Position numbers and translations under genes: made by a program. Below are positions 20,046 to 35,182 of a stretch of 59,916 bases of DNA, one piece after another. Source of the stretch: an uncultured Muribaculaceae bacterium (GTDB lineage: Bacteria > Bacteroidota > Bacteroidia > Bacteroidales > Muribaculaceae); assembly GCA_947178505.1 (NCBI GenBank), contig CAMWYR010000010.1, positions 1 to 59,916 on the forward strand. Reading direction: 5' to 3'. The notes under the pieces are model-generated. The model searched no databases. It saw only the letters and a program-made list of their open reading frames with translations, and was not told the DNA's origin. The stretch's first letter is position 1; each line of letters begins with the position of its first letter.

Positions 20046-23000
20046 TCAGTCTGCATCTTTAACCTTGAAACTGATCTCACACTCTTCGAGCATTGTAACG
20101 AGTTCCCTTGTAATAGGAATCTTCTTCTTGGAATGCACCTTGAGAGTCTGACGCGTGTCGGCATCGAGGAGTTCGATATATAACTCTCCGGGCCGGCTTT
20201 TGTCTTCAAGTTTTTTCATCTGTTCGAAGAAGTCGGGATTCTTATAGTTAAGATCCAGGAAGATTGTAATGCTGTTGGCAATCTTTCCTTTTATTGAATC
20301 AAGGTCGATGATTTCCTCAACTGTCTGGAAACTCTGCGACGGATCAAATTTTGAGGGCTTATAGAAAATTTTGAGCATTATCGGTTGCCCGACTGCAAGC
20401 CGGTTGCTGTATGTCTCATGGTCCTTTCCGTGCAGGAAGATTTCTGCTTTTCCTGTAGCATCCTCAATCTCGAGATATGTATACTCCTTACCTTTCTTCG
20501 AGATACGTTGCATAACATTGGTCACCAATCCTCCGACCGTGACTTTTGTACCCGGTTTTTTCTCATATTTGAATTCGTCGCAGGTTGTGCTGCAGCCGTA
20601 CGTAAGCTCCATATAATATTGGTCGAGCGGATGGGCAGAGAGATACATTGTGACGAGTTCCTTCTCCTTCTCGAGCAGAGCGAGCTGATTCCAGTGCTCC
20701 ACTTCCGGCAGCGGAGGTCGGTTGCATTCGAATGTCTCGATATCCCCGAAGAGTGAGAGCTGAGGTGAATTCTTCTCATTCTGTATGCGCTGACCATATT
20801 TTACAAGCACCTCTGAGTAATTGGAGTCCAGTACTTTTGTAACAAATGTCTCGCGCGGCCATCCGAACGCATCGAACGCCCCTGCGAGTGCCATATTCTC
20901 AATCGCTCCACGGTTGCAGGCGCTCAGGTTTACGCGCTCCACAAAGTCAAACACATCTTTGAAGTGGCCGTTGGCGTTACGCTCGTGGATGATTGCTGCC
21001 ACTGCATTGACGCCTACACCCTTGATCGCTCCAAGTCCGAATCTTATCTCGCCCTTGGCATTGACACTGAATTTCTCGAGCGACTCGTTGACATCCGGCC
21101 CGAGCACCTTAAGTCCCATCCGGCGGCATTCGTCCATCACTTTCTTGATCTTATCAGCTGCCGAAAGATTTCGGCTGAGCACTCCTGCCATATATTCAGC
21201 CGGATAGTGAGCCTTGAGGTAGGCAGTCTGGTAAGCAACCCATGTGTAGCACGTGGCATGACTCTTGTTGAAGGCATACGAGGCGAATTTCTCCCAGTCT
21301 TCCCAAATCTTATTGAGCGCAGCTTCCTTATGACCGTTACCCATGCCTTGCTCCATGAATTTCTTCTTTAGCTTCTGCATCTTGTCAATCTGCTTTTTAC
21401 CCATAGCCTTACGCAGCATATCGCTCTCGCCGCGCGTGAAGTTGGCGAGCAGACGCGACAGGAGCATGACCTGCTCCTGATAGACGGTCACTCCGTAGGT
21501 CTCCTGGAGATATTTCTCCATGATGTCGATGTCGTAGACAATTGGTTCCTCGCCATGCTTTCGCGCGATAAAGGTCGGAATGTAATCCATCGGGCCCGGT
21601 CGGTAGAGAGCATTCATGGCGATGAGATCTTCAAATTTAGTGGGATGCAGGCTCCGGAGGGAGTTCTGCATACCGGGCGACTCAAACTGGAAGGTTGATG
21701 TCGTGTTGCCTTCGCAGTAAAGGTCGAACGTCTTCTGGTCGTCGAGCGGAATGTTCTCTATATCAAGTTCTATGCCGTGACGCTGCTTTATATTGAAGAG
21801 TGCTTCCTTTATGATTGAGAGGGTCTTCAGTCCGAGGAAGTCCATCTTGATGAGGCCCGTGTCTTCGATGATGCTTCCTTCATATTGGGTGGTCATTACG
21901 GTCTCACCGTCTGAGTCGCTCGCGGTCGAGACGGGCACCCAGTCGGTAATGTCGTCGCGGCTGATGATGACGCCGCAGGCGTGTACGCCTGTGTTGCGGA
22001 TGTTGCCCTCGAGCTCCACCGCATATTTGAGCGAGTCGCGGATCAGCGGGTCTGGATTGTGAGTCTCAGCTTCAAGTTCCTTAACGTATTTGAGGCAGTT
22101 CTTAAGATTAACCTTCGGTGCTTTTCCTTCCACCTCGGGGAGACGGTCGGGGATCATTTTGGCCAGACGGTTGGACTCCGGCAGTGGCACTTCCATCACA
22201 CGGGCCACATCCTTGATGGCGCTCTTTGTGGCCATAGTGCCGAAGGTGATGATATGCGCAACCTTTTCCGCGCCATATTTGCGGGTCACGTATTTGAGCA
22301 CTTCATAGCGGCCGTCATCATCGAAGTCAACATCAATATCGGGGAGCGAGATACGGTCGGGATTAAGGAATCTCTCAAATAGCAGGTCATATTTGATAGG
22401 GTCGATTTGAGTGATGCCGAGACAGTAGGCAGCCGCCGAACCGGCCGCCGAACCGCGTCCGGGGCCTACACTGACTCCCAATTCCTTCCTTGCGACGTTA
22501 ATGAAGTCCTGTACGATCAGGAAGTAACCGGGGAAACCCATCGTCTTCATTATGTATAGCTCGAACTTGAGCCGCTCCATAACATCATCCGGAATCGGAT
22601 CGCCATATTTCTCCTTGGCTCCTTCCAATGTAAGCTTCGCAAGATAGTCAGCCTCAAATTTTATGCGGTAGAGTTTATCGTAGCCGCCGAGACGCTCGAT
22701 CTTTTTCTTCGCATCCTCTTCGCTGAGCACGACGTTGCCGTTCTCATCCTGCGTGAATTCGTCAAAGAGGTCTTTTTCAGTAAGTCGACTGCGATATTCT
22801 TCTTCCGTGCCGAATTCTTCCGGAATCTCGAAGAAGGGCATGATGGGAGCGTGGTTGATTGTGTAGAGTTCAACCTTATCCAATATCTCTTGCGTAGCGT
22901 CGAGCGCCTGCGGGACATCCTTGAATATCTCCCACATCTCATCCGGGCTCTTGAGCCATTCCTGCTTCGTATAGTGAAGTCGAGGCTCCGAATATTTCTT

Positions 23001-23735
23001 ATTCATCGCCAGACAGATGAGTCGGTCGTGCGCTTCACCGTCTTCTTCGTTGGTGAAGTGCACATCGTTAGTGGCCACAACCTTGATATTGTGTTTGGCC
23101 GAAAGATTGAGGAGATAATCGTTCACCTTGGTCTGCTCGATGAATACCTCCGTATTGGCATTCTCCTTGAATGTCTGATGCCGCTGGAGCTCAAGATAGT
23201 AGTCGTCGCCGAAGACGCTCTTATACCAGAGCGCACGTTCCTCCGCCTTCTCGTATTCTTCATGCATGACAAACTGAGGCACTTCTCCGCCGAGGCATGC
23301 GGAGCATACGATGAGCCCTTCCTTGTATTTCTCAAGGCTCTCGCGGTCGGTACGGGGCTTGTAATAGAAGCCGTCGGTCCAGGCCTCACTCACGAGTTTC
23401 ACCAGGTTGTGATATCCCTGAAGATTCTTTGCGAGCACGATCAGGTGATAGCCGTTATCCGTACGGTCTTTCTTATCTGTCTTCTTTTCGCGGGCTACGT
23501 ACATCTCACAACCGAGTATGGGCTTGAATTTCTCTTCGTCGCTTTTACCTCCGTTTTTCTTCTCTACGTAGTTGAAAAATTCCTTGATGCCGAACATGTT
23601 ACCATGGTCTGTGAGCGCAAGGCCGCGCATTCCTAATTCAATGCTCTTGTCAACAAGTTCGGGTATTGATGCTTTGCCGTCCTGCAGACTGTACTGCGAG
23701 TGTACATGTAGATGTGTAAACGGATGGTTGCTCAT
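20046..23735 (-). CDS. dnaE: DNA polymerase III alpha subunit
   Basis: A 1229-residue replicative polymerase of the DnaE type. The N-terminal PHP domain starts HLHVHSQYSLQDG. The polymerase core contains VGPGRGSAAGSAAAYCLGI and the catalytic aspartates in LPDIDVDFDDDGR. Next come the finger and tau-binding parts, an HhH motif (GLGAIKGVGVNAV) and a C-terminal OB domain (KVTVGGLVTNVMQRISKKGK). The frame is open to 23894, but the ATG at 23735 lies at the family start and 60 bp downstream of a consensus promoter. That promoter lies inside the upstream extension, which settles the choice. Confidence 0.97.
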   Translation of the reverse strand: MSNHPFTHLHVHSQYSLQDGKASIPELVDKSIELGMRGLALTDHGNMFGIKEFFNYVEKKNGGKSDEEKFKPILGCEMYVAREKKTDKKDRTDNGYHLIVLAKNLQGYHNLVKLVSEAWTDGFYYKPRTDRESLEKYKEGLIVCSACLGGEVPQFVMHEEYEKAEERALWYKSVFGDDYYLELQRHQTFKENANTEVFIEQTKVNDYLLNLSAKHNIKVVATNDVHFTNEEDGEAHDRLICLAMNKKYSEPRLHYTKQEWLKSPDEMWEIFKDVPQALDATQEILDKVELYTINHAPIMPFFEIPEEFGTEEEYRSRLTEKDLFDEFTQDENGNVVLSEEDAKKKIERLGGYDKLYRIKFEADYLAKLTLEGAKEKYGDPIPDDVMERLKFELYIMKTMGFPGYFLIVQDFINVARKELGVSVGPGRGSAAGSAAAYCLGITQIDPIKYDLLFERFLNPDRISLPDIDVDFDDDGRYEVLKYVTRKYGAEKVAHIITFGTMATKSAIKDVARVMEVPLPESNRLAKMIPDRLPEVEGKAPKVNLKNCLKYVKELEAETHNPDPLIRDSLKYAVELEGNIRNTGVHACGVIISRDDITDWVPVSTASDSDGETVMTTQYEGSIIEDTGLIKMDFLGLKTLSIIKEALFNIKQRHGIELDIENIPLDDQKTFDLYCEGNTTSTFQFESPGMQNSLRSLHPTKFEDLIAMNALYRPGPMDYIPTFIARKHGEEPIVYDIDIMEKYLQETYGVTVYQEQVMLLSRLLANFTRGESDMLRKAMGKKQIDKMQKLKKKFMEQGMGNGHKEAALNKIWEDWEKFASYAFNKSHATCYTWVAYQTAYLKAHYPAEYMAGVLSRNLSAADKIKKVMDECRRMGLKVLGPDVNESLEKFSVNAKGEIRFGLGAIKGVGVNAVAAIIHERNANGHFKDVFDFVERVNLSACNRGAIENMALAGAFDAFGWPRETFVTKVLDSNYSEVLVKYGQRIQNEKNSPQLSLFGDIETFECNRPPLPEVEHWNQLALLEKEKELVTMYLSAHPLDQYYMELTYGCSTTCDEFKYEKKPGTKVTVGGLVTNVMQRISKKGKEYTYLEIEDATGKAEIFLHGKDHETYSNRLAVGQPIMLKIFYKPSKFDPSQSFQTVEEIIDLDSIKGKIANSITIFLDLNYKNPDFFEQMKKLEDKSRPGELYIELLDADTRQTLKVHSKKKIPITRELVTMLEECEISFKVKDAD

Positions 23736-23794
23736 ATGTAATAGGAAAGAATCGGTATGTAGTTCCGTTAGGTTCTTGGTTTTCTTAGCAACTG

Positions 23795-23825
23795 CAAATA
23801 TACGAATAAATTCCCAAACATTCAA
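23795..23825 (-). promoter_or_regulatory. Promoter of dnaE
   Basis: Leftward TTG (23825-23823), a 20-base spacer, then TATATTTG (23802-23795). It matches the Bacteroidetes consensus exactly, about 60 bp before the dnaE ATG. Confidence 0.78.
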
Positions 23826-24009
23826 CTGCTCCTCGTAATTCATCGGAGATGTTGATGATAATCTGTCGCATTCAAGGCGGCCTCCCGCTCGCAACGACAG
23901 AGTGCTCTGGCCGATACACTCAGAGCCTGCCGTAACCTTGTCAATACGTACCTGACCTGAATTAGAGGATGGTGGCTTATCATTGCTTGCGCATCAATCT
24001 GTTTTAAAT

Positions 24010-24040
24010 TTGGTTTATCCGCCGTAATGAGTTAAATTTG
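24010..24040 (+). promoter_or_regulatory. Promoter of the AlbA_2-WYL gene
   Basis: TTG (24010-24012), a 20-base spacer, TAAATTTG (24033-24040). The predicted leader is about 75 bases. Confidence 0.78.
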
Positions 24041-24122: not shown

Positions 24123-27095
24123 ATGAATCAACCTGCATTCTGGCTCAAAATTACACCTGCCTACGTTATTGAAAATTTTGAGAGTCTTTTCTCCTACGTT
24201 AACAAATATAATTATTCGGTTCCGGAATATCCTCAAAGTGATTTTAACCGAACTGCTGATTTTCTGAATGAAGTCGCACTTTCCCTTATTGAAAAAGCTA
24301 ATGCTGCTGATCTGGATAGTACGCCCGAATGGGAAATGGGAGTTGAAAAAGCCTTAAGAATTGTCGGTACAGCTATCGTGACTCAAAATAAAAGAGGTAT
24401 CATTCCGCATGAACTTATAATCGGACTGATTAGTATGCTGTCGGCAGTAGGAGCCGTACAGTCAGAGTTTCTCGAGTCGTATATCAGCACGGTGAATGCC
24501 TGCAGCCGCAAACTTGATATCAAAACCTTTTCAATTGGATTTCGCGACCTTATACCGGACGATTTCCAAATTTCAAAACTCGCCCGCAATGTCTCGAAAT
24601 TTGAATGGAAAGATGATGACTCGCTCAAAGCGGATTACGAACAACATGGATCCGTGGCTTTCACTGAATCAGGAATCACTCTCTATCCTCTCAATCTTGA
24701 TGATATGGCGTCCTCGCGGTCAAGAACGAGAACGATTTTTAACACCGACCTTGATATTAAGTTTGCCGACCGTGACCTGAAGAAGATTAATTGCGATCAA
24801 CCTCAGGAAATACTTTCAAATGTGCCCATGTTGCTGACTCAGCTTAAAGGAGTGAAGCCTTCGAAAGAGCACCGACCGAAACAATTCACGGAAGACGGCT
24901 ATGTGGATGTTCGCATCAAATCGATAAGCGGCATCAAGATTACGTGCGAGAGCAGAGACCCTGAGTATGAGAAAATCGCCGGAAATCTGCTGCTTGACTC
25001 CTCCAATGTCGGAGTGGGGCGCGACGCTTTGCTTAATAATCTCAGCGTTGGTGATATTCTCCCTGCTTATTTAAATTATAACCCGAGGGGACAGTCGACA
25101 TTCTCTATTTCGGATGATAGTGATGAAGAGTTGGACTTTAAATGCCATTTATTGGAGAATTTCGATCGTCCCTATATGAAGGCTGTGTACCTGCAGACAT
25201 ATTCTCTTGGCACCCGCTGGATGACGGAAAGTGGAATTCAGGTTAATATACTCAATTCCAATGATCCGACTCTGATCCGTGAGGAACACGGCTATGACGG
25301 AGCGTGCGTTAAGGTCAAGATTAATGAAATTACTACTGACAGGCAAGGAAAGGTCGTAGCCAACGGCTACTTCCTGCCCGAAAGCGAGCAGGATGAGGAG
25401 GATGTTGATCCGGATATTTTCATTCAGAATGCCAATAACGCTCTGGCACGGGCATTGCTAAGCTATATGAAATATAATGATGATCAGCCGGAGGAACCGG
25501 AGGAAAAGTCAATGAAGGTCGACAGCGAGGTCGTGCGTCTTGTCGGTCGCCTGCTTATAAAGAATATTGATAAGGATAAGGGTCTTTCATCCGCAGAGCG
25601 AGCCGCCCGGCTCGCTATGGCCATAGCTTTTTTTGAATGTGTCGGAGATCAGGCAAACCTCAATATCGCCCAGCGGGAAATTTCATTCCTGAATCTCGCC
25701 GTTAACTTCGCAACGGGTCAGACGCCGGCTACTCTTAAGTTTGAGAATGATCCTTCCATTGATATCAACGAGCGCACGCTTGAGTTAAGAAAAGCAGCGG
25801 AGGTGCTCCGTAAGTATAAGGAGCGCGACAACCGTCTCATTACCTCCGAATCGCTCGAAATTGAAATGGATAATCTCGGGTTGGTTGCCGATCTGGTTGA
25901 GGCAAGCAATACGCTCATTGATAAAATTGACCCGGTGGAGATTTCAAGAATAAAGAAGACTATCGCCCGTCGGCTCGGGGTGGCCGATGTATTCAAGGAT
26001 CTTTACCGGCAATATACCAACTATGGTGACGAGAGCGACATCCTCGAATTCAAGAGATCGTGTGTGCAACCTCCGAGAAACCATAAATGCGACACGTTCC
26101 AGGGAAATCTGGATGTGCAGGCCTTCAATATATTAAAGACCGTATGTGCGTTTCTTAATTCACCGACGGGGGGCGATTTGCTTATCGGTGTCGATGATAA
26201 TGGGTATGGTATCGGACTTGATGACGATATTGAGCGTCTCTATACAAACGGAATCATTCAGGAGCGGACTGCCGACCGGCTCAGGATATATATTAAGAAT
26301 AAACTGGATCAGGCTTTCGTCACCAACGACGGCAACACAAGCGGCAATTCCATCACGGTCGGCCACGTGCTGGTGAATGTCGAACCGACCGGCACATCCA
26401 ACCGGCAGATACTGCGGGTGAAGGTGACGCCTTATCCCTATGATGTGGTGAGGATCAAAAAGGATTTCGTGCCATCGTCGTGGGGGAGCGACGTGTTCTA
26501 CCGCACAAGCGGTTCGTCGGAGCCGCTGAAGTCTGACGGTGTGCGCAATATCAAGCTCGAGAAGCTCAACCGGCTCGATCGCAATGAGTCTAAGCTTGCG
26601 ATTATCCTTGAAGCAATCGATCGGAAAAAGCAGTTGCAGCTCTACGGATATCAATCAAGTTCAGGTAGGTCCGACCGCCGAATCGAACCGCATAAAGTAA
26701 TGCCTGATAACATGTCGCTGCAGGCTTACGACCACCGCAGAAACGCAATGCGACTGTTCCGGCTTTCGCGGATCGACCGCATTGAGAAGACTGATCAGAA
26801 CTGGAAATATGAGAAGAAGCACTTCACGCTTGAGGTCGACCTATTCGGAATGAGTCAGTCGGCGGAATACCCCGGCAGTATAGTTCATGTAAAAGTGACT
26901 AATTTTGCACTTATGCTCCTGAAAGAAGAGCATCCGGGATATCAGTCGTGCATACACTTCAAGGAGCAGCAGAATAAGGGTGCGGATAAGGATACATTCC
27001 CCTGGGTATTGGAGATGAAATTGTTCAATCCCTTAGGCCTTAAGCGATTTGCTGCGGGATTACCCGACTATGTTAAGATTGAGGAGGAAATTTAA
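24123..27095 (+). CDS. Large protein with AlbA_2 (Schlafen-type) and WYL domains, function unknown
   Basis: A 990-residue soluble protein. Residues about 633-770 match the AlbA_2/Schlafen nucleic-acid-binding domain: ESDILEFKRSC, then a helix and FLNSPTGGDLLIGVDDNGYG. Residues about 820-900 match a WYL ligand-sensing domain: LAIILEAIDRKKQLQLYGY, RRIEPHKVM, SLQAYDHRRNAMRLFRLSRI. The first 630 residues are not recognised; DGYVDVRIKSISGIKITCES with a later LSVGDILPAYL and GACVKVKINEI look like OB/S1-type strands. AlbA_2 and WYL domains are both frequent in regulators and in phage-defence genes. It is a single gene with its own promoter, back to back with dnaE and followed by recJ. A role in nucleic-acid stress sensing or defence is inference. 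Confidence 0.8.
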   Translation: MNQPAFWLKITPAYVIENFESLFSYVNKYNYSVPEYPQSDFNRTADFLNEVALSLIEKANAADLDSTPEWEMGVEKALRIVGTAIVTQNKRGIIPHELIIGLISMLSAVGAVQSEFLESYISTVNACSRKLDIKTFSIGFRDLIPDDFQISKLARNVSKFEWKDDDSLKADYEQHGSVAFTESGITLYPLNLDDMASSRSRTRTIFNTDLDIKFADRDLKKINCDQPQEILSNVPMLLTQLKGVKPSKEHRPKQFTEDGYVDVRIKSISGIKITCESRDPEYEKIAGNLLLDSSNVGVGRDALLNNLSVGDILPAYLNYNPRGQSTFSISDDSDEELDFKCHLLENFDRPYMKAVYLQTYSLGTRWMTESGIQVNILNSNDPTLIREEHGYDGACVKVKINEITTDRQGKVVANGYFLPESEQDEEDVDPDIFIQNANNALARALLSYMKYNDDQPEEPEEKSMKVDSEVVRLVGRLLIKNIDKDKGLSSAERAARLAMAIAFFECVGDQANLNIAQREISFLNLAVNFATGQTPATLKFENDPSIDINERTLELRKAAEVLRKYKERDNRLITSESLEIEMDNLGLVADLVEASNTLIDKIDPVEISRIKKTIARRLGVADVFKDLYRQYTNYGDESDILEFKRSCVQPPRNHKCDTFQGNLDVQAFNILKTVCAFLNSPTGGDLLIGVDDNGYGIGLDDDIERLYTNGIIQERTADRLRIYIKNKLDQAFVTNDGNTSGNSITVGHVLVNVEPTGTSNRQILRVKVTPYPYDVVRIKKDFVPSSWGSDVFYRTSGSSEPLKSDGVRNIKLEKLNRLDRNESKLAIILEAIDRKKQLQLYGYQSSSGRSDRRIEPHKVMPDNMSLQAYDHRRNAMRLFRLSRIDRIEKTDQNWKYEKKHFTLEVDLFGMSQSAEYPGSIVHVKVTNFALMLLKEEHPGYQSCIHFKEQQNKGADKDTFPWVLEMKLFNPLGLKRFAAGLPDYVKIEEEI

Positions 27096-27097
27096 AT

Positions 27098-27128
27098 TTG
27101 AAAATATCCGTTTTTTTTCGTATATTTG
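27098..27128 (+). promoter_or_regulatory. Promoter of recJ
   Basis: TTG (27098-27100), exactly 20 bases, then TATATTTG (27121-27128). The element starts 3 bp after the stop of the preceding gene. The in-frame ATG at 27126 lies inside the -7 box, which excludes it as the recJ start. Confidence 0.8.
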
Positions 27129-27230
27129 CAAATTGGAGAGATATGTTGCCGAATATGCCTGTCGCGCAACGGGATAGGTATATCCGGCCGACTGAATCTC
27201 CTCTTCAATGATCCAGATAAGCTTACAGCC

Positions 27231-28970
27231 ATGACCAATAAATGGAATTACCAACCCCTGACTCTTCAGCAGAAGGAAGAGGCCGATAAGATGCTTGCGC
27301 GATGCGGCAATAATCCCGTCATTGCAGAGTTGCTAGTGCGCCGCGGCGTCTCTACTGCCGAAGGTGCCGATGCCTTTTTTGCCCCCTCTCTGGCCGGACT
27401 GCACGATCCTTTCCTTATGCCGGATATGGATAAGGCGGTTAGGCGGCTTAATAAGGCGATGGGTGCCAAGGAACGGATAATGATCTATGGTGATTATGAC
27501 GTTGATGGCACCACGGCTGTTGCGCTCGTCTATAAGTATCTCCAGAATTATTATTCAAATGTTGAGTATTACATTCCCACCCGTGATGACGAGGGGTATG
27601 GTATTTCGTTGAAGAGCATTGACTATGCGGCTGAAAATGGAGTCAAGCTTATCATCGTGCTCGACTGTGGCATCAAGGCTATCGATGAGATCGCTTATGC
27701 TAAGTCGAAGGGCATCGATTTCATTATCTGCGATCATCATGTGCCTGATGAGGAATTGCCTGCTGCTGTGGCAATCCTTAATCCTAAGATGCCCGGCAGC
27801 CCTTATCCCTGCAAACATCTGAGCGGTTGCGGCGTCGGCTTCAAGTTCATGCAGGCCTTTGCCGTCAGCAATGGTCTTGGGAGCCATAACGAGCTTGAAT
27901 CAATGCTTGATTTAGTGGCTGTTTCCATTGCTTCCGATCTTGTGCCTATTGTCGGTGAAAACCGCGTGATGGCCTATCATGGCCTGAAGCGTCTCAACTC
28001 CAATCCGAATCTGGGCTTGCGGAGCATAATGCGTCTCTGCAAACTCACGAATAAGGACATCACAATCAGTGAGGTGATATTCAAGATCGGGCCGCGCATA
28101 AATGCGTCGGGAAGAATGCAGAGCGGCATGGAGACGGTAGATCTGCTCGTGAGCCGCGATCTGCATGAAGCATACGAAAAGGGAAAGGATATCGATCAGC
28201 ACAATAAGGAGCGTAAGGAGCTCGATAAGAGGATAACTGAGGAGGCCAACGCTCATATAGAGAAGAATGTGGGAGTGGTGAAAGACCGTCGCTCGATCGT
28301 AATTTATAACCGCGACTGGCATAAGGGCGTGATCGGAATCGTCGCTTCGCGCCTCACCGAACTTTATTATAAACCGGCCGTGGTGCTGTCGCATTCCAAC
28401 GGATTCGCAACCGGCTCGGCCAGGTCTGTTCAGGGCTTTGATATATATGCGGCAGTGAATTCAGTACGCGACCTTCTTGAGAATTTCGGTGGCCATACGT
28501 ATGCTGTCGGTCTCTCCCTGAAGGAAGAGAATATTCCTGAGTTCACGCGCAGATTTGAGGAGTATGTGGGCGCACATATCCTTCCCAATCAGCTTGAACC
28601 GCACATCGACATTGACGCCGATATTGAATTTGCCGACATTACTCCCGAACTGGTAAGTATGCTGAATAAATTCAATCCGTTCGGTCCGGGCAATCAGAAG
28701 CCGGTGTTCCGCACGCGTAATGTGTTTGATTTCGGCACGAGCAAGCTCGTAGGCCGGAATCTCGAACATATCAAGCTCGAACTTGAAGATGACAGCACGA
28801 GCCACGTGATGAATGCCATCGCATTCAATATGGCGCCATATTTCGAGCGGATACATGCACATAAGCCCGTGGATATCTGTTATACTATCGAGCAGAGCCG
28901 GCATGGCAACAATCAGGAGAATATCCAGCTTATGATCCGCGATATACGCCCTTCAGAACCTAAGAAGTGA
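27231..28970 (+). CDS. recJ: Single-stranded-DNA-specific exonuclease RecJ
   Basis: A 579-residue 5'-3' single-strand exonuclease used in RecF-pathway recombination and mismatch repair. DHH-domain motifs are present in order: IYGDYDVDGTTA near residue 84, LDCGIKA, DHHVPDEELP near 170 and the RINASGRM region. The DHHA1 domain (GSARSVQGFD, then ENFGGHTYAVG) and the C-terminal OB part (FNPFGPGNQKPVF) follow. The ATG at 27231 (MTNKWNYQPL) is chosen because the promoter covers the more upstream ATG. The recQ gene follows after 67 bp. Confidence 0.96.
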   Translation: MTNKWNYQPLTLQQKEEADKMLARCGNNPVIAELLVRRGVSTAEGADAFFAPSLAGLHDPFLMPDMDKAVRRLNKAMGAKERIMIYGDYDVDGTTAVALVYKYLQNYYSNVEYYIPTRDDEGYGISLKSIDYAAENGVKLIIVLDCGIKAIDEIAYAKSKGIDFIICDHHVPDEELPAAVAILNPKMPGSPYPCKHLSGCGVGFKFMQAFAVSNGLGSHNELESMLDLVAVSIASDLVPIVGENRVMAYHGLKRLNSNPNLGLRSIMRLCKLTNKDITISEVIFKIGPRINASGRMQSGMETVDLLVSRDLHEAYEKGKDIDQHNKERKELDKRITEEANAHIEKNVGVVKDRRSIVIYNRDWHKGVIGIVASRLTELYYKPAVVLSHSNGFATGSARSVQGFDIYAAVNSVRDLLENFGGHTYAVGLSLKEENIPEFTRRFEEYVGAHILPNQLEPHIDIDADIEFADITPELVSMLNKFNPFGPGNQKPVFRTRNVFDFGTSKLVGRNLEHIKLELEDDSTSHVMNAIAFNMAPYFERIHAHKPVDICYTIEQSRHGNNQENIQLMIRDIRPSEPKK

Positions 28971-29037
28971 TTAATATTGCACTATTGCGCATCTTTCTTT
29001 TAGTTTATCCGGTCACTGCCGGGGAAGGGCAACATCG

Positions 29038-30942
29038 ATGACAGCTCTCGAGACACTAAAAAAATATTGGGGATATGATTCCTTCAGGCCCTTGCAGTCA
29101 GATCTTGTCGGCTCTATCCTTGATGGACGCGACACACTGGGCCTTATGCCTACCGGTGGCGGTAAGTCAATCACTTTTCAGGTGCCGGGAATGATGCTCC
29201 CGGGTGTCACCGTGGTTATCACGCCCCTGATCTCGCTGATGAAAGACCAGGTTGACAATCTGAAGCGCCGCCGTATAAAGGCTGTGTTCATGCATGCCGG
29301 AATGACCCAGCATGAGCGCACGGTTGCCCGTGAGAAACTTATCAACGGTGGAGCAAAATTCCTTTACGTTTCCCCTGAACGCATTTCAAATGAAAATTTC
29401 ATAGCCGATCTCCGCCGCACTCAGGTAAGCCTGATTGTGGTGGATGAGGCTCACTGCATTTCTCAATGGGGTTATGATTTCCGGCCTTCCTATCTGAACA
29501 TCACCCGTCTGCGCAAGCTGAAGCCGGATGTGCCGGTAATGGCGCTGACTGCCACGGCCACTCCTCAGGTGGCGGAAGACATCTGTCGTCAGCTGGAAAT
29601 GGTGAGCCCAGCAATCTGGCGCATGAGCTTCGTGCGGGATAATATCAATTATATCGTGCGGCCATGCCAGACTAAAATCAACGAGGTGCTGCATATCCTG
29701 AGCCGCACGCAAGGCTCGGCAATAGTCTATGTGCGTTCAAGAAAGCGTACCGGAGATATTACCGAATTCCTGACGAGTTCAGGGATAAGTGCGGCCAATT
29801 ATCATGCCGGACTCACCTACGCTCTCAAGGAGGAGCGTCAGAACAGCTGGAAAACGGGCGAGACGCGTGTGATGGTGGCTACCAACGCCTTTGGGATGGG
29901 TATTGATAAACCCGATGTGCGCGTGGTGATTCATTATGACATGCCCCCGAGTCTGGAGGAGTATTATCAGGAGGCAGGCAGAGCCGGCCGTGATGGGCTG
30001 ACGAGCTATGCGGTGCTCCTTACGTCGCGTTCGGATCAGGGCGTGATGCGCCGAAGAGTCACGGAGGCATTCCCTGATAGGGATATTATCCGAAAGGTCT
30101 ATGAGCGCGTCTGCAACCGGCTTAACATTTCAGTCGGGGAGGGCTATGACACTTTAAAGGAATTTGACTTCGAAAAATTCTGCGAAGTTTTCGGTTATCA
30201 GCCCCGGCAATGCATGGCGGCTATCCGCCTTCTTGAGCAGGCCGGCTACCTTGCCTATATGGAAGACAGCGACCGGCGGTCGAGGGTAATGATGACCGTG
30301 CATCGTGAAGAACTTTACGATCTGCGCGGAATAAGCAGTGAGGCTGAGCGGGTGCTTACTGCATTATTGCGCCAGTACACAGGTCTCTTTTCTGAATATG
30401 TGTATATCAATGAAAGCCGGCTTGCATCGGCCTCAGGCATCCGGGAAGCGGACATTTATGGTCTGATGCTTGAACTGGCCCGCGCCAAGATCCTGAGCTA
30501 TATTCCTAAGAGCCGCGTTCCGCTGATGTATCTTCCTACATCCCGGGAGGAACCCCGCTATCTTCAGATAGGTAAGGCGATTTATGAGGATAGGAAGCAG
30601 ATAATGTCGGAGCGTGTGGAGGCGATGATCGACTATGCTTTCAATCCGAAAATATGTCGCGAAAACCGGATGATAGAGTATTTCGGAGAGAAACCGGAGA
30701 TTCCGTGCGGCCGTTGTGATACGTGTCGCGAAAAGCGAAAGCGTAATAAGAAGCTATCCGTGGAGGAGGCCATAGCGGGGATAGTCAGCTATCTGAAGGA
30801 GAAACCTGACGGAGTCGACATGAGGATAATGGGAGCAGCCCTGGCGGGTGAAGGAGAGGCTTTCTCCAAGGCTTTCAACTATCTGCTTTGTGAGAACTAC
30901 ATCACGAATGAAAAGGGTCTGGTAAGACTCTCGGGCGAATGA
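29038..30942 (+). CDS. recQ: ATP-dependent DNA helicase RecQ
   Basis: A 634-residue 3'-5' helicase that unwinds DNA for RecJ resection. SF2 motifs are visible: MPTGGGKS near residue 37, VVDEAHCISQWGYDFRPSYL, ALTATATPQV, TNAFGMGIDKPDVR and QEAGRAGRDG. The RecQ-C-terminal zinc site is formed by cysteines in PKICREN and CGRCDTC. A winged-helix part follows. No clear HRDC domain is present at the C-terminus, which ends soon after a basic stretch (KRKRNKK) and about 60 residues of helical sequence. The recJ-recQ order suggests a functional pair. Confidence 0.95.
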   Translation: MTALETLKKYWGYDSFRPLQSDLVGSILDGRDTLGLMPTGGGKSITFQVPGMMLPGVTVVITPLISLMKDQVDNLKRRRIKAVFMHAGMTQHERTVAREKLINGGAKFLYVSPERISNENFIADLRRTQVSLIVVDEAHCISQWGYDFRPSYLNITRLRKLKPDVPVMALTATATPQVAEDICRQLEMVSPAIWRMSFVRDNINYIVRPCQTKINEVLHILSRTQGSAIVYVRSRKRTGDITEFLTSSGISAANYHAGLTYALKEERQNSWKTGETRVMVATNAFGMGIDKPDVRVVIHYDMPPSLEEYYQEAGRAGRDGLTSYAVLLTSRSDQGVMRRRVTEAFPDRDIIRKVYERVCNRLNISVGEGYDTLKEFDFEKFCEVFGYQPRQCMAAIRLLEQAGYLAYMEDSDRRSRVMMTVHREELYDLRGISSEAERVLTALLRQYTGLFSEYVYINESRLASASGIREADIYGLMLELARAKILSYIPKSRVPLMYLPTSREEPRYLQIGKAIYEDRKQIMSERVEAMIDYAFNPKICRENRMIEYFGEKPEIPCGRCDTCREKRKRNKKLSVEEAIAGIVSYLKEKPDGVDMRIMGAALAGEGEAFSKAFNYLLCENYITNEKGLVRLSGE

Positions 30943-31018
30943 TTCCGGAGATACCAGACGAATACAACGATAGCTACTATTGTAAACACTGCTATAAACT
31001 AACAATATCACTATATTT

Positions 31019-32272
31019 ATGACTGGACTTGTAGACTGCAATAACTTTTTTGTAAGTTGCGAGCGTACCCTCAACCCCTCACTCGAAGGGAGGGCGGTAG
31101 TCGTGCTGAGTAATAACGACGGCTGCGTAGTGGCGCGGAGCAATGAGGCAAAGAAACTTGGAATCCGGATGGGGCAACCTGCGTTTGAAATTAAGGATAT
31201 TATCAATAAGGGGCAAGTGATTGCACTTTCGGGCAATCATCTTCTTTATCGGGCAATCAGTATCCGGCTTCATGATATCTTCAGGGAATATGCTCCCTCC
31301 ACAACTGACTATTCCGTCGACGAAGCATTTCTTGATATGACCGGTATTCCGGTGGATGCCCTTGAGGATATTGGGAAGGAAATGGTTGCGAGGTGCTGGA
31401 ATGATGAGCATATACCTGTCACAATTGGATTTGCCACTACTAAAACACTTGCTAAAATAGCCACGGAATATGGCAAAAAGAATGGAGTGAAGGTCAAGGT
31501 GCTGGTCGACAGGGATGAAATAGGTTCCATACTCGACCGCATGATTATCTCCGACTTGTGGGGTATAGGGCGCAGGCTGGCAAAACGGTTGCATGCAAAA
31601 GGAATCTATACGATAGGAGATTTCGCAAGGTGTCCCCGTCAATGGGTGAGAAGTGAGATGGGGGTCACGGGCGAGAGATCGTGGTGTGAACTGAAAGGGG
31701 AGGCATGTATTGATTTAGATCATGTCGACAGAAATCTTCAGGACTCGGTGAGTGAGTCGCGGACATTCCCGATTGATATTGATGATTTCGATTACATGCG
31801 CTCGCGTATCGCCATCTATTGCAATCATGTTGCCCGGAGATTGCGTGCGATGGGTGGACAGTGTGAAGAAATGTGTGTGTGGTTGACGACAAATCGGTTT
31901 CATCTCGAAAGAGGGTACTCGGCCCCGACGGCTACAACCACTTTCTCGCCACCTACTTCAGATTCCTCGGTCATAGCCACCACTGGAATCGCCCTTCTGG
32001 AGCACATTTTTCAGCCCGGTTGTTTGTACAAACGCGCCGGTGTGGTGCTGAATAAAATTACGCCGGCCACATCTTTCGCTCCTACACTCTTTGAAGACGG
32101 GGAGAGCCAGAGGATAGCAGTGTTACGGTCAAAGCGTCTGATGAATGCCATCGATAAGGTGAACACGAAGAGTAATCCTCAGGTAGTAAGGCTTGCCGTG
32201 GAGCTTACAAAAGGTCACGTAGGCCATAACGACGGCTATTCCAGTTCGTTCGGGCCGGCGAAGCCGCTATGA
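31019..32272 (+). CDS. umuC: Y-family DNA polymerase, UmuC type
   Basis: A 417-residue translesion polymerase. Catalytic motifs are present: LVDCNNFFVSCE at the N-terminus (Asp6) and YSVDEAFLDM near residue 98 (Asp and Glu). HhH elements follow (LWGIGRRLAKRLHAKGI), then the little-finger domain and the C-terminal DUF4113-like end (NPQVVRLA). UmuC needs processed UmuD to form Pol V, but no umuD is adjacent; it may be elsewhere or this enzyme may act alone. Weak LexA-type control cannot be judged from the sequence. It follows recQ by 76 bp on the same strand. Confidence 0.92.
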   Translation: MTGLVDCNNFFVSCERTLNPSLEGRAVVVLSNNDGCVVARSNEAKKLGIRMGQPAFEIKDIINKGQVIALSGNHLLYRAISIRLHDIFREYAPSTTDYSVDEAFLDMTGIPVDALEDIGKEMVARCWNDEHIPVTIGFATTKTLAKIATEYGKKNGVKVKVLVDRDEIGSILDRMIISDLWGIGRRLAKRLHAKGIYTIGDFARCPRQWVRSEMGVTGERSWCELKGEACIDLDHVDRNLQDSVSESRTFPIDIDDFDYMRSRIAIYCNHVARRLRAMGGQCEEMCVWLTTNRFHLERGYSAPTATTTFSPPTSDSSVIATTGIALLEHIFQPGCLYKRAGVVLNKITPATSFAPTLFEDGESQRIAVLRSKRLMNAIDKVNTKSNPQVVRLAVELTKGHVGHNDGYSSSFGPAKPL

Positions 32273-34327: not shown

Positions 34328-35182
34328 ATGAACGATTATTATAGCGTCAGGGTTAATGCGACGCCTTGCTCCTCCGACATAACAGATCTGGCGGCTTCTT
34401 TCCTCGCGGACGCCGGTTTTGAGTCTTTTGAGCCCGATGATAAGGGTCTCACCGCCTATGTCAGCGTTGCGGCCGTAGATGCGCTTAAATTGGCCCGTAC
34501 AGCCCTTGAGGACTTCCCAATGGAGGCCCACTTTAATATCAGTTGCCATCTCGTTAAGGGTGAGAACTGGAATGAGGAATGGGAAAAACACTATTTCAAA
34601 CCGATTCTGATCGATGAGGAATGTGTGATCCATTCCTCTTTTCATACAGATGTGCCGCAGGCTCCATATGATATCGTGATCGACCCTAAAATGGCGTTCG
34701 GTACCGGCCACCATGACACGACATCCAACATGGTACGTCTGCTCCTTGAGAGCGATCTGGAGGGTAGGAAAGTGATCGATATGGGCACAGGTACAGGTAT
34801 TCTGGGTATTCTTGCCGCGATGCGCGGAGCAAGCGATGTGACGGGTATTGAAATCGATCTTCCGGCCTTTGAGAATGCGGTGGAGAATATTAGTCTGAAC
34901 GGTGTGGATATGACAGCCGTGCATGGTGATGCGTCGGCTCTTGACCAGCTTCAGGAAGCCGATTTCCTATTGGCAAATATCAACCGCAACATTATTCTCA
35001 ACGATATTGACCGCTATGCAAAGAAAGTAAAGAAAGGTGGGAAAATGTTCTTAAGTGGCTTTTATGAAGAGGATGTTCCTTTGTTGCTTGAGGCCGCCTG
35101 CGTACTCGGATTCAAGGAGGAGAAGAGGCTTGTCACTCCGGCCCGTTGGACAGCGCTTAGCCTCGTCAAAAAAAATGACTGA
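34328..35182 (+). CDS. prmA: Ribosomal protein L11 methyltransferase
   Basis: A 284-residue SAM-dependent enzyme that trimethylates ribosomal protein L11. An N-terminal substrate-recognition domain is followed by the PrmA hallmark ENWNEEWEKHYFKPI and by the methyltransferase core with DPKMAFGTGHHDTT, the SAM loop VIDMGTGTGILGILAA and the catalytic NINRN motif. The length is usual. It begins 1 bp after the preceding stop and is followed after 3 bp by a GNAT gene, so the three are co-transcribed. Confidence 0.95.
   Translation: MNDYYSVRVNATPCSSDITDLAASFLADAGFESFEPDDKGLTAYVSVAAVDALKLARTALEDFPMEAHFNISCHLVKGENWNEEWEKHYFKPILIDEECVIHSSFHTDVPQAPYDIVIDPKMAFGTGHHDTTSNMVRLLLESDLEGRKVIDMGTGTGILGILAAMRGASDVTGIEIDLPAFENAVENISLNGVDMTAVHGDASALDQLQEADFLLANINRNIILNDIDRYAKKVKKGGKMFLSGFYEEDVPLLLEAACVLGFKEEKRLVTPARWTALSLVKKND

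Follow-up and report, generated by a model that had tools for sequence, protein, structure and literature searches.

A Muribaculaceae protein joining a Schlafen-type AlbA_2 domain to WYL-WCX sensor domains, a candidate nucleic-acid-gated ribonuclease

Introduction

SLFN11, a Schlafen ribonuclease (RNase) with the AlbA_2 fold, is linked to DNA damage, and the same fold is found in SLFN13, SLFN14 and the transfer RNA (tRNA)-cleaving domain of SAMD9. The ExxxxExK motif of SLFN14 (E206, E211 and K213) is reported to be needed for cleavage (PMC12215978). Moreover, PMC12839542 states, citing a preprint, that Schlafen-linked bacterial systems can act in anti-phage defence; the Schlafen-family RNase described there is said to sense phage signals and to cleave tRNA, and it forms a fusion with a minimal histidine kinase and a winged helix-turn-helix (HTH). 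The WYL-WCX pair is known from BrxR, CapW, DriD and PafBC, transcription factors whose N-terminus carries an HTH or winged HTH, as stated for PafBC (PMC11804915) and BrxR (PMC9122601). PafBC and DriD respond to single-stranded DNA (ssDNA) after damage, and the binding of ssDNA by PafB is abolished by mutating R211/R214, R181, R181/R204/R208 or Y196 (for PafBC and PafB, PMC11804915). Here we analyse a 990-residue protein encoded at 24123..27095 (plus strand, ATG start) of a 59,916-nucleotide stretch, hereafter the window, from an uncultured gut bacterium of the Muribaculaceae (contig CAMWYR010000010.1, assembly GCA_947178505.1). This protein joins an AlbA_2 domain of the Schlafen type to a WYL-WCX pair, and we give about an even chance to its being a solitary ribonuclease gated by nucleic acid. 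No description of a Schlafen protein with WYL was found in the literature searched, in which subscription papers were sparse and bioRxiv lay outside coverage.

Domain architecture and conserved residues

The first-pass annotation of this DNA had placed AlbA_2 and WYL in one chain, and Pfam profile searches confirmed both. SLFN_AlbA_2 (PF04326) was matched over residues 637-802 (26031..26528, plus strand; E 4.7e-13; score 50.1 bits, cut-off 25.3) and WYL over residues 825-888 (E 5.9e-9; score 36.3 bits, cut-off 21.8). No other Pfam family was found in the 990 residues at E ≤10, NCBIfam gave no match at E ≤1, and the PADLOC matches of the protein were confined to its WYL part. The motifs ESDILEFK, GGDLLIGVDDNG and RLFRLSRI start at residues 637, 683 and 877, respectively. 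In an AlphaFold2 model (predicted local distance difference test, pLDDT, 86.5), the AlbA_2 fold has the RNase domains of SAMD9 and the Schlafen proteins as its nearest neighbours, and residues 819-990 (26577..27092, plus strand) adopt the WYL-WCX fold seen in BrxR, CapW, DriD and PafBC. Note that Pfam does not call WCX in the window protein itself; the assignment of this part comes from a PafC profile match and the fold.

In support of an RNase-type AlbA_2, the ExxxxExK motif (E637, E642 and K644) is spaced as in SLFN14, and these three residues and D692 are invariant in all 42 aligned relatives (defined below), in each of which Pfam detects SLFN_AlbA_2 at E ≤1. D691, the likely counterpart of SLFN14 D248, is D in only 2 of the 42. 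A profile of the AlbA_2 domain run against PDB matched SLFN11 (E 2.6e-5) and SLFN5 (1.1e-4); the values for SLFN14 (0.0064), SLFN12 (0.012) and SAMD9 (0.27) were level with those of unrelated uL23 chains. The window protein differs from the Schlafen and SAMD9 enzymes in joining S1-like and WYL-WCX domains, and also in that no second AlbA_2 lobe was identified: Pfam reports one AlbA_2 stretch, and the second lobe, which in SLFN14 bears the conserved arginine R133, was not searched for at the level of single residues. As for the sensor, the ssDNA-binding arginines of PafB are mostly kept (R852, R877, R880 and R883, from an alignment read by eye in which PafB R204 was left unmapped), and the WYL tyrosine of PafB is not kept.

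The 630 residues that precede AlbA_2 had been described as unrecognised. This still holds for residues 1-245 (24123..24857, plus strand), a helical, TPR-like domain with an FWL motif (AlphaFold2 of residues 1-248, pLDDT 91.0), which found no confident match in a fold search and in which W7, N18 and G176 are invariant in 42/42 relatives. It no longer holds for residues from about 250 to 425 (24870..25397, plus strand), which appear to form tandem S1/OB-like folds in the AlphaFold2 model. This tandem has no sequence-profile match, and it differs from domains D3-D4 of ribosomal protein S1 in that its two domains lie inside a larger enzyme. A second helical domain, residues 430-630 (25410..26012, plus strand), recurs in larger relatives of 1340 residues (class C, see below) and matches their colinear segment with an hhalign E of 2.5e-14.

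Taken as one machine, these domains suggest the following model. AlbA_2 would be the cutter, a metal-dependent endoribonuclease of the Schlafen/SAMD9 type, and its target would most likely be tRNA, by analogy to SAMD9 and the Schlafen proteins, or another translation-associated RNA. The S1-like tandem would bind or present the RNA or dock on the translation machinery. The C-terminal WYL-WCX would bind single-stranded nucleic acid, most likely ssDNA if PafBC, DriD and CapW are a guide, which could arise from DNA damage or phage replication. The ligand would free the RNase from restraint, with an arrest of translation protecting the cell or the population as the outcome. The earlier proposal that WYL senses and AlbA_2 acts on nucleic acid agrees with the matched folds and with the residues that are conserved, and can now be narrowed to an AlbA_2 that looks to be of the RNase type.

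Relatives and their spread

Some match to the 990-residue protein was obtained in 156 of 397 Muribaculaceae genomes, and we sorted the relatives into class A (AlbA_2 plus WYL), class B (no WYL) and class C (larger AlbA_2 proteins). Among the matches listed, class A is present in 38 genomes and class B in 13, together 51 of the 397, as counted by eye with at most two candidates scored per genome; in the remaining 105, the matches fell mostly on the AlbA_2 segment of other proteins, many of them larger. The main alignment (A1) holds 42 of the 51 class A/B proteins (31 A and 11 B), the 9 without fetched neighbourhoods being left out; alignment A4 holds 26 of these 42, and alignment A2, for class C, represents 14 of the about 105 genomes with partial matches. 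The window protein is the single match within its own genome. Outside the family, 393 genomes of the order yielded one further near-complete relative among the matches listed (class B, in G741), and 395 genomes of the phylum yielded no further full-length relative at E ≤1e-12. Titles of the 45 longer matches (L117-L161) name the Muribaculaceae or its genera in 19 cases, the others being Porphyromonadaceae, Bacteroidales, Bacteroides, Prevotella and so on.

The architecture of AlbA_2 plus WYL thus has a patchy distribution within one family, and it lies at varied sites. Close relatives, as judged by RecJ, point the same way: the closest (G352, 92% RecJ identity, genome 83% complete) shows no class A/B protein, and G296 carries a form without WYL. 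RecJ is far better conserved than the 990-residue protein in the genomes found in both searches, with identities of 82% and 43%, respectively, in G360, 79% and 34% in G139, 81% and 31% in G194, and 88% and 28% in G296. In a tree of residues 440-805, class B is nested in class A, which suggests that class B arose by loss of WYL, although class B as a single clade is supported at only 60/83.

Class C proteins have about 1050-1700 residues, mostly near 1340, and recur in the Muribaculaceae (L071-L085 except L081). They align colinearly with residues 7-818 of the window protein (hhalign E 9.5e-58), a span that takes in everything between the start of the N-terminal helical domain and the end of AlbA_2. 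Each of four segments tested found its own counterpart with a probability of at least 95 (given the matching part), the other segments reaching at most 3%. They differ in carrying about 310 extra N-terminal residues and in having no WYL match in any of the 14 scanned.

The WYL part also matches stand-alone proteins in genomes of the order, mostly of about 300-350 residues and with E down to 7.4e-46, and Pfam finds an HTH in all 3 stand-alone WYL(-WCX) relatives scanned. Together with the structure of the SAMD9 domain in PDB 7ksp, which was determined in the presence of DNA, this would be in line with a ligand-responsive DNA-binding regulator, in which AlbA_2 binds DNA uncut, WYL responds to a ligand and transcription or replication is under the control of the protein. 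We nevertheless regard such a regulator as improbable: at E ≤10 the 990 residues yield no HTH match in Pfam, the difference that also sets the protein apart from BrxR, CapW, DriD and PafBC, the catalytic motif is invariant in the 42 relatives, and the S1-like tandem points to RNA. As a separate observation, among 12 stand-alone WYL loci read, a cas6-like gene adjoins in 3 (L092, L093 and L113) and a HIRAN-like gene in 3 (L089, L095 and L098); Pfam run on three such neighbours confirmed 2 as cas6 and 1 as HIRAN.

Domain divergence and the hydrolase locus

In one clade of 11 genomes, the gene lies downstream of an acetyl-CoA hydrolase-like gene and, in 9 of the 11, directly upstream of a GNAT gene. 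Within this clade the median identity is 55% for the S1-like part, 65% for the N-terminal domain, 70% for the middle domain, 86% for AlbA_2, 83% for WYL and 71% for WCX; as comparison, two neighbouring genes gave 82% and 89%, and GNAT 47%. Sequences of the S1-like part form discrete groups that resemble alleles (L036-L046), with 77.5% identity between L037 and L040 and 51.7% between L040 and L044, and AlbA_2 stays close in the same pairs (93.7% and 86.8%). These groups could reflect exchange of the S1 part or faster change. The GNAT gene downstream is likewise highly variable in these loci.

Among 30 loci around the hydrolase, the gene for the candidate RNase adjoins in 7, a GNAT-like match lies there instead, about 30-500 bases off, in 10, and neither is present in 13, some of them cut by contig ends. 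Since the GNAT-like matches have 31-45% identity over part of their length, their orthology is uncertain. This pattern fits the insertion of a single gene.

Across two sets of loci read (12 and 11), the neighbours, for which longest open reading frames (ORFs) were picked, so that some are not real genes, are mostly housekeeping-like or unknown and differ between loci. They include lepA, prfC, dnaX, rnr and spoT-like genes, named by reading translations. Such neighbours would suit a housekeeping stress RNase or translation-surveillance factor whose S1-like part docks on ribosomes or mRNA, whose RNase acts in stalled or damaged states by trimming RNA and whose WYL reads RNA fragments or a nucleotide, with no phage role. 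So would the synteny kept in the 11 genomes, and the much lower frequency of amino-acid changes compared with silent ones in every domain, although silent sites are saturated. Against this stand the scarcity of class A and B in the family and the RecJ-close genomes described above, with no class A/B protein in G352 and the form without WYL in G296, and we hold a purely housekeeping role to be unlikely.

Genomic surroundings and the question of defence

An exact TTTG-N20-TAAATTTG site, which we take to be the Bacteroidetes-type promoter consensus, lies at 24009..24040 (plus strand), in agreement with the promoter that the first-pass annotation had given to the gene. This pattern occurs 3 times in the window against 0.49 expected in shuffled sequence, and a sigma-70-type promoter scan returned no site in the 24009-24040 region. 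Because recJ, downstream, has its own exact site (27097-27128), the gene may be monocistronic. The DnaE gene (20046..23894, by Pfam) is on the minus strand, so the two genes are indeed divergent, as had been noted.

Downstream of the gene, on the same strand, lie recJ, recQ and an IMS-family (dinB-type) polymerase gene (27126-32272, by Pfam). This order, together with the response of DriD and PafBC to ssDNA, would agree with a growth brake used for DNA damage only, in which WYL reads ssDNA from chromosome damage and serves no defence. Such a restricted role appears very improbable to us, as the neighbourhood is not conserved: no counterpart of the window DnaE was found in the stretches around the other 41 class A/B loci, several of which are truncated where a contig ends, nor was dnaE found in up to 1.5 kb upstream of recJ in 29 genus relatives. 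The coupling to dnaE-recJ once suggested for this gene finds no support in the same survey.

Finally, the loci were examined for defence genes. PADLOC on 10 window ORFs returned two findings only: a Clp-type ATPase, hit by 8 models, and a partial match to mad2, a model of the MADS system, in a 284-residue ORF (34328-35182; E 5.7e-19 over part of its length). Neighbours at 30 loci were compared at E ≤1e-10, near ones being within 3 genes and far ones 4-8 genes away, with ORFs of at least 120 residues kept. The near set comprised 134 ORFs, four long ones out of 138 having been removed, and the far set 134 ORFs selected manually from 166. The near set matched 53 PADLOC families (not genes) and the far set 40, the first 25 of each being listed; the far set comes from the same loci and is thus a weak control, and the near neighbours are not clearly richer in such matches. 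The exception is 1 of the 30 loci (L047:11597-14311), in which a type II methyltransferase and what is probably its restriction enzyme accompany the class A gene. The methyltransferase (PADLOC E 9.2e-64) lies three genes away, and a model for a type II restriction enzyme (E 2.8e-114) was hit by one member of the near set, probably the 641-residue ORF beside it.

In L051, L067 and L069, a tRNA-Ser(GCT) gene was also seen at most about 0.1 kb downstream of the gene for the candidate RNase; L067 and L069 apparently represent one and the same site. In L070 this tRNA gene lies about 2 kb upstream, and other tRNAs occur at the loci as well. This proximity may mark an integration site or be due to chance.

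Discussion

The WYL proteins met here, BrxR, CapW, DriD and PafBC, are transcription factors; in the window protein WYL is joined to an apparent Schlafen RNase, and through this union a nucleic-acid signal would lead directly to the cleavage of RNA. A more specific version, possible in our view if clearly less probable than the general mechanism, is that the protein is a one-protein bacterial counterpart of SLFN11. Its ssDNA-sensing WYL would switch a Schlafen-type tRNase directly, the fast-diverging S1-like tandem would serve as swappable target recognition, and damage or phage replication would lead to translation arrest without a transcription step. If the route from WYL to Schlafen exists, it would parallel human SLFN11 and SAMD9, and the triggering of bacterial Schlafen-type RNases would become testable with one protein. 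By such means, these gut bacteria may shut down protein synthesis upon DNA damage or phage attack.
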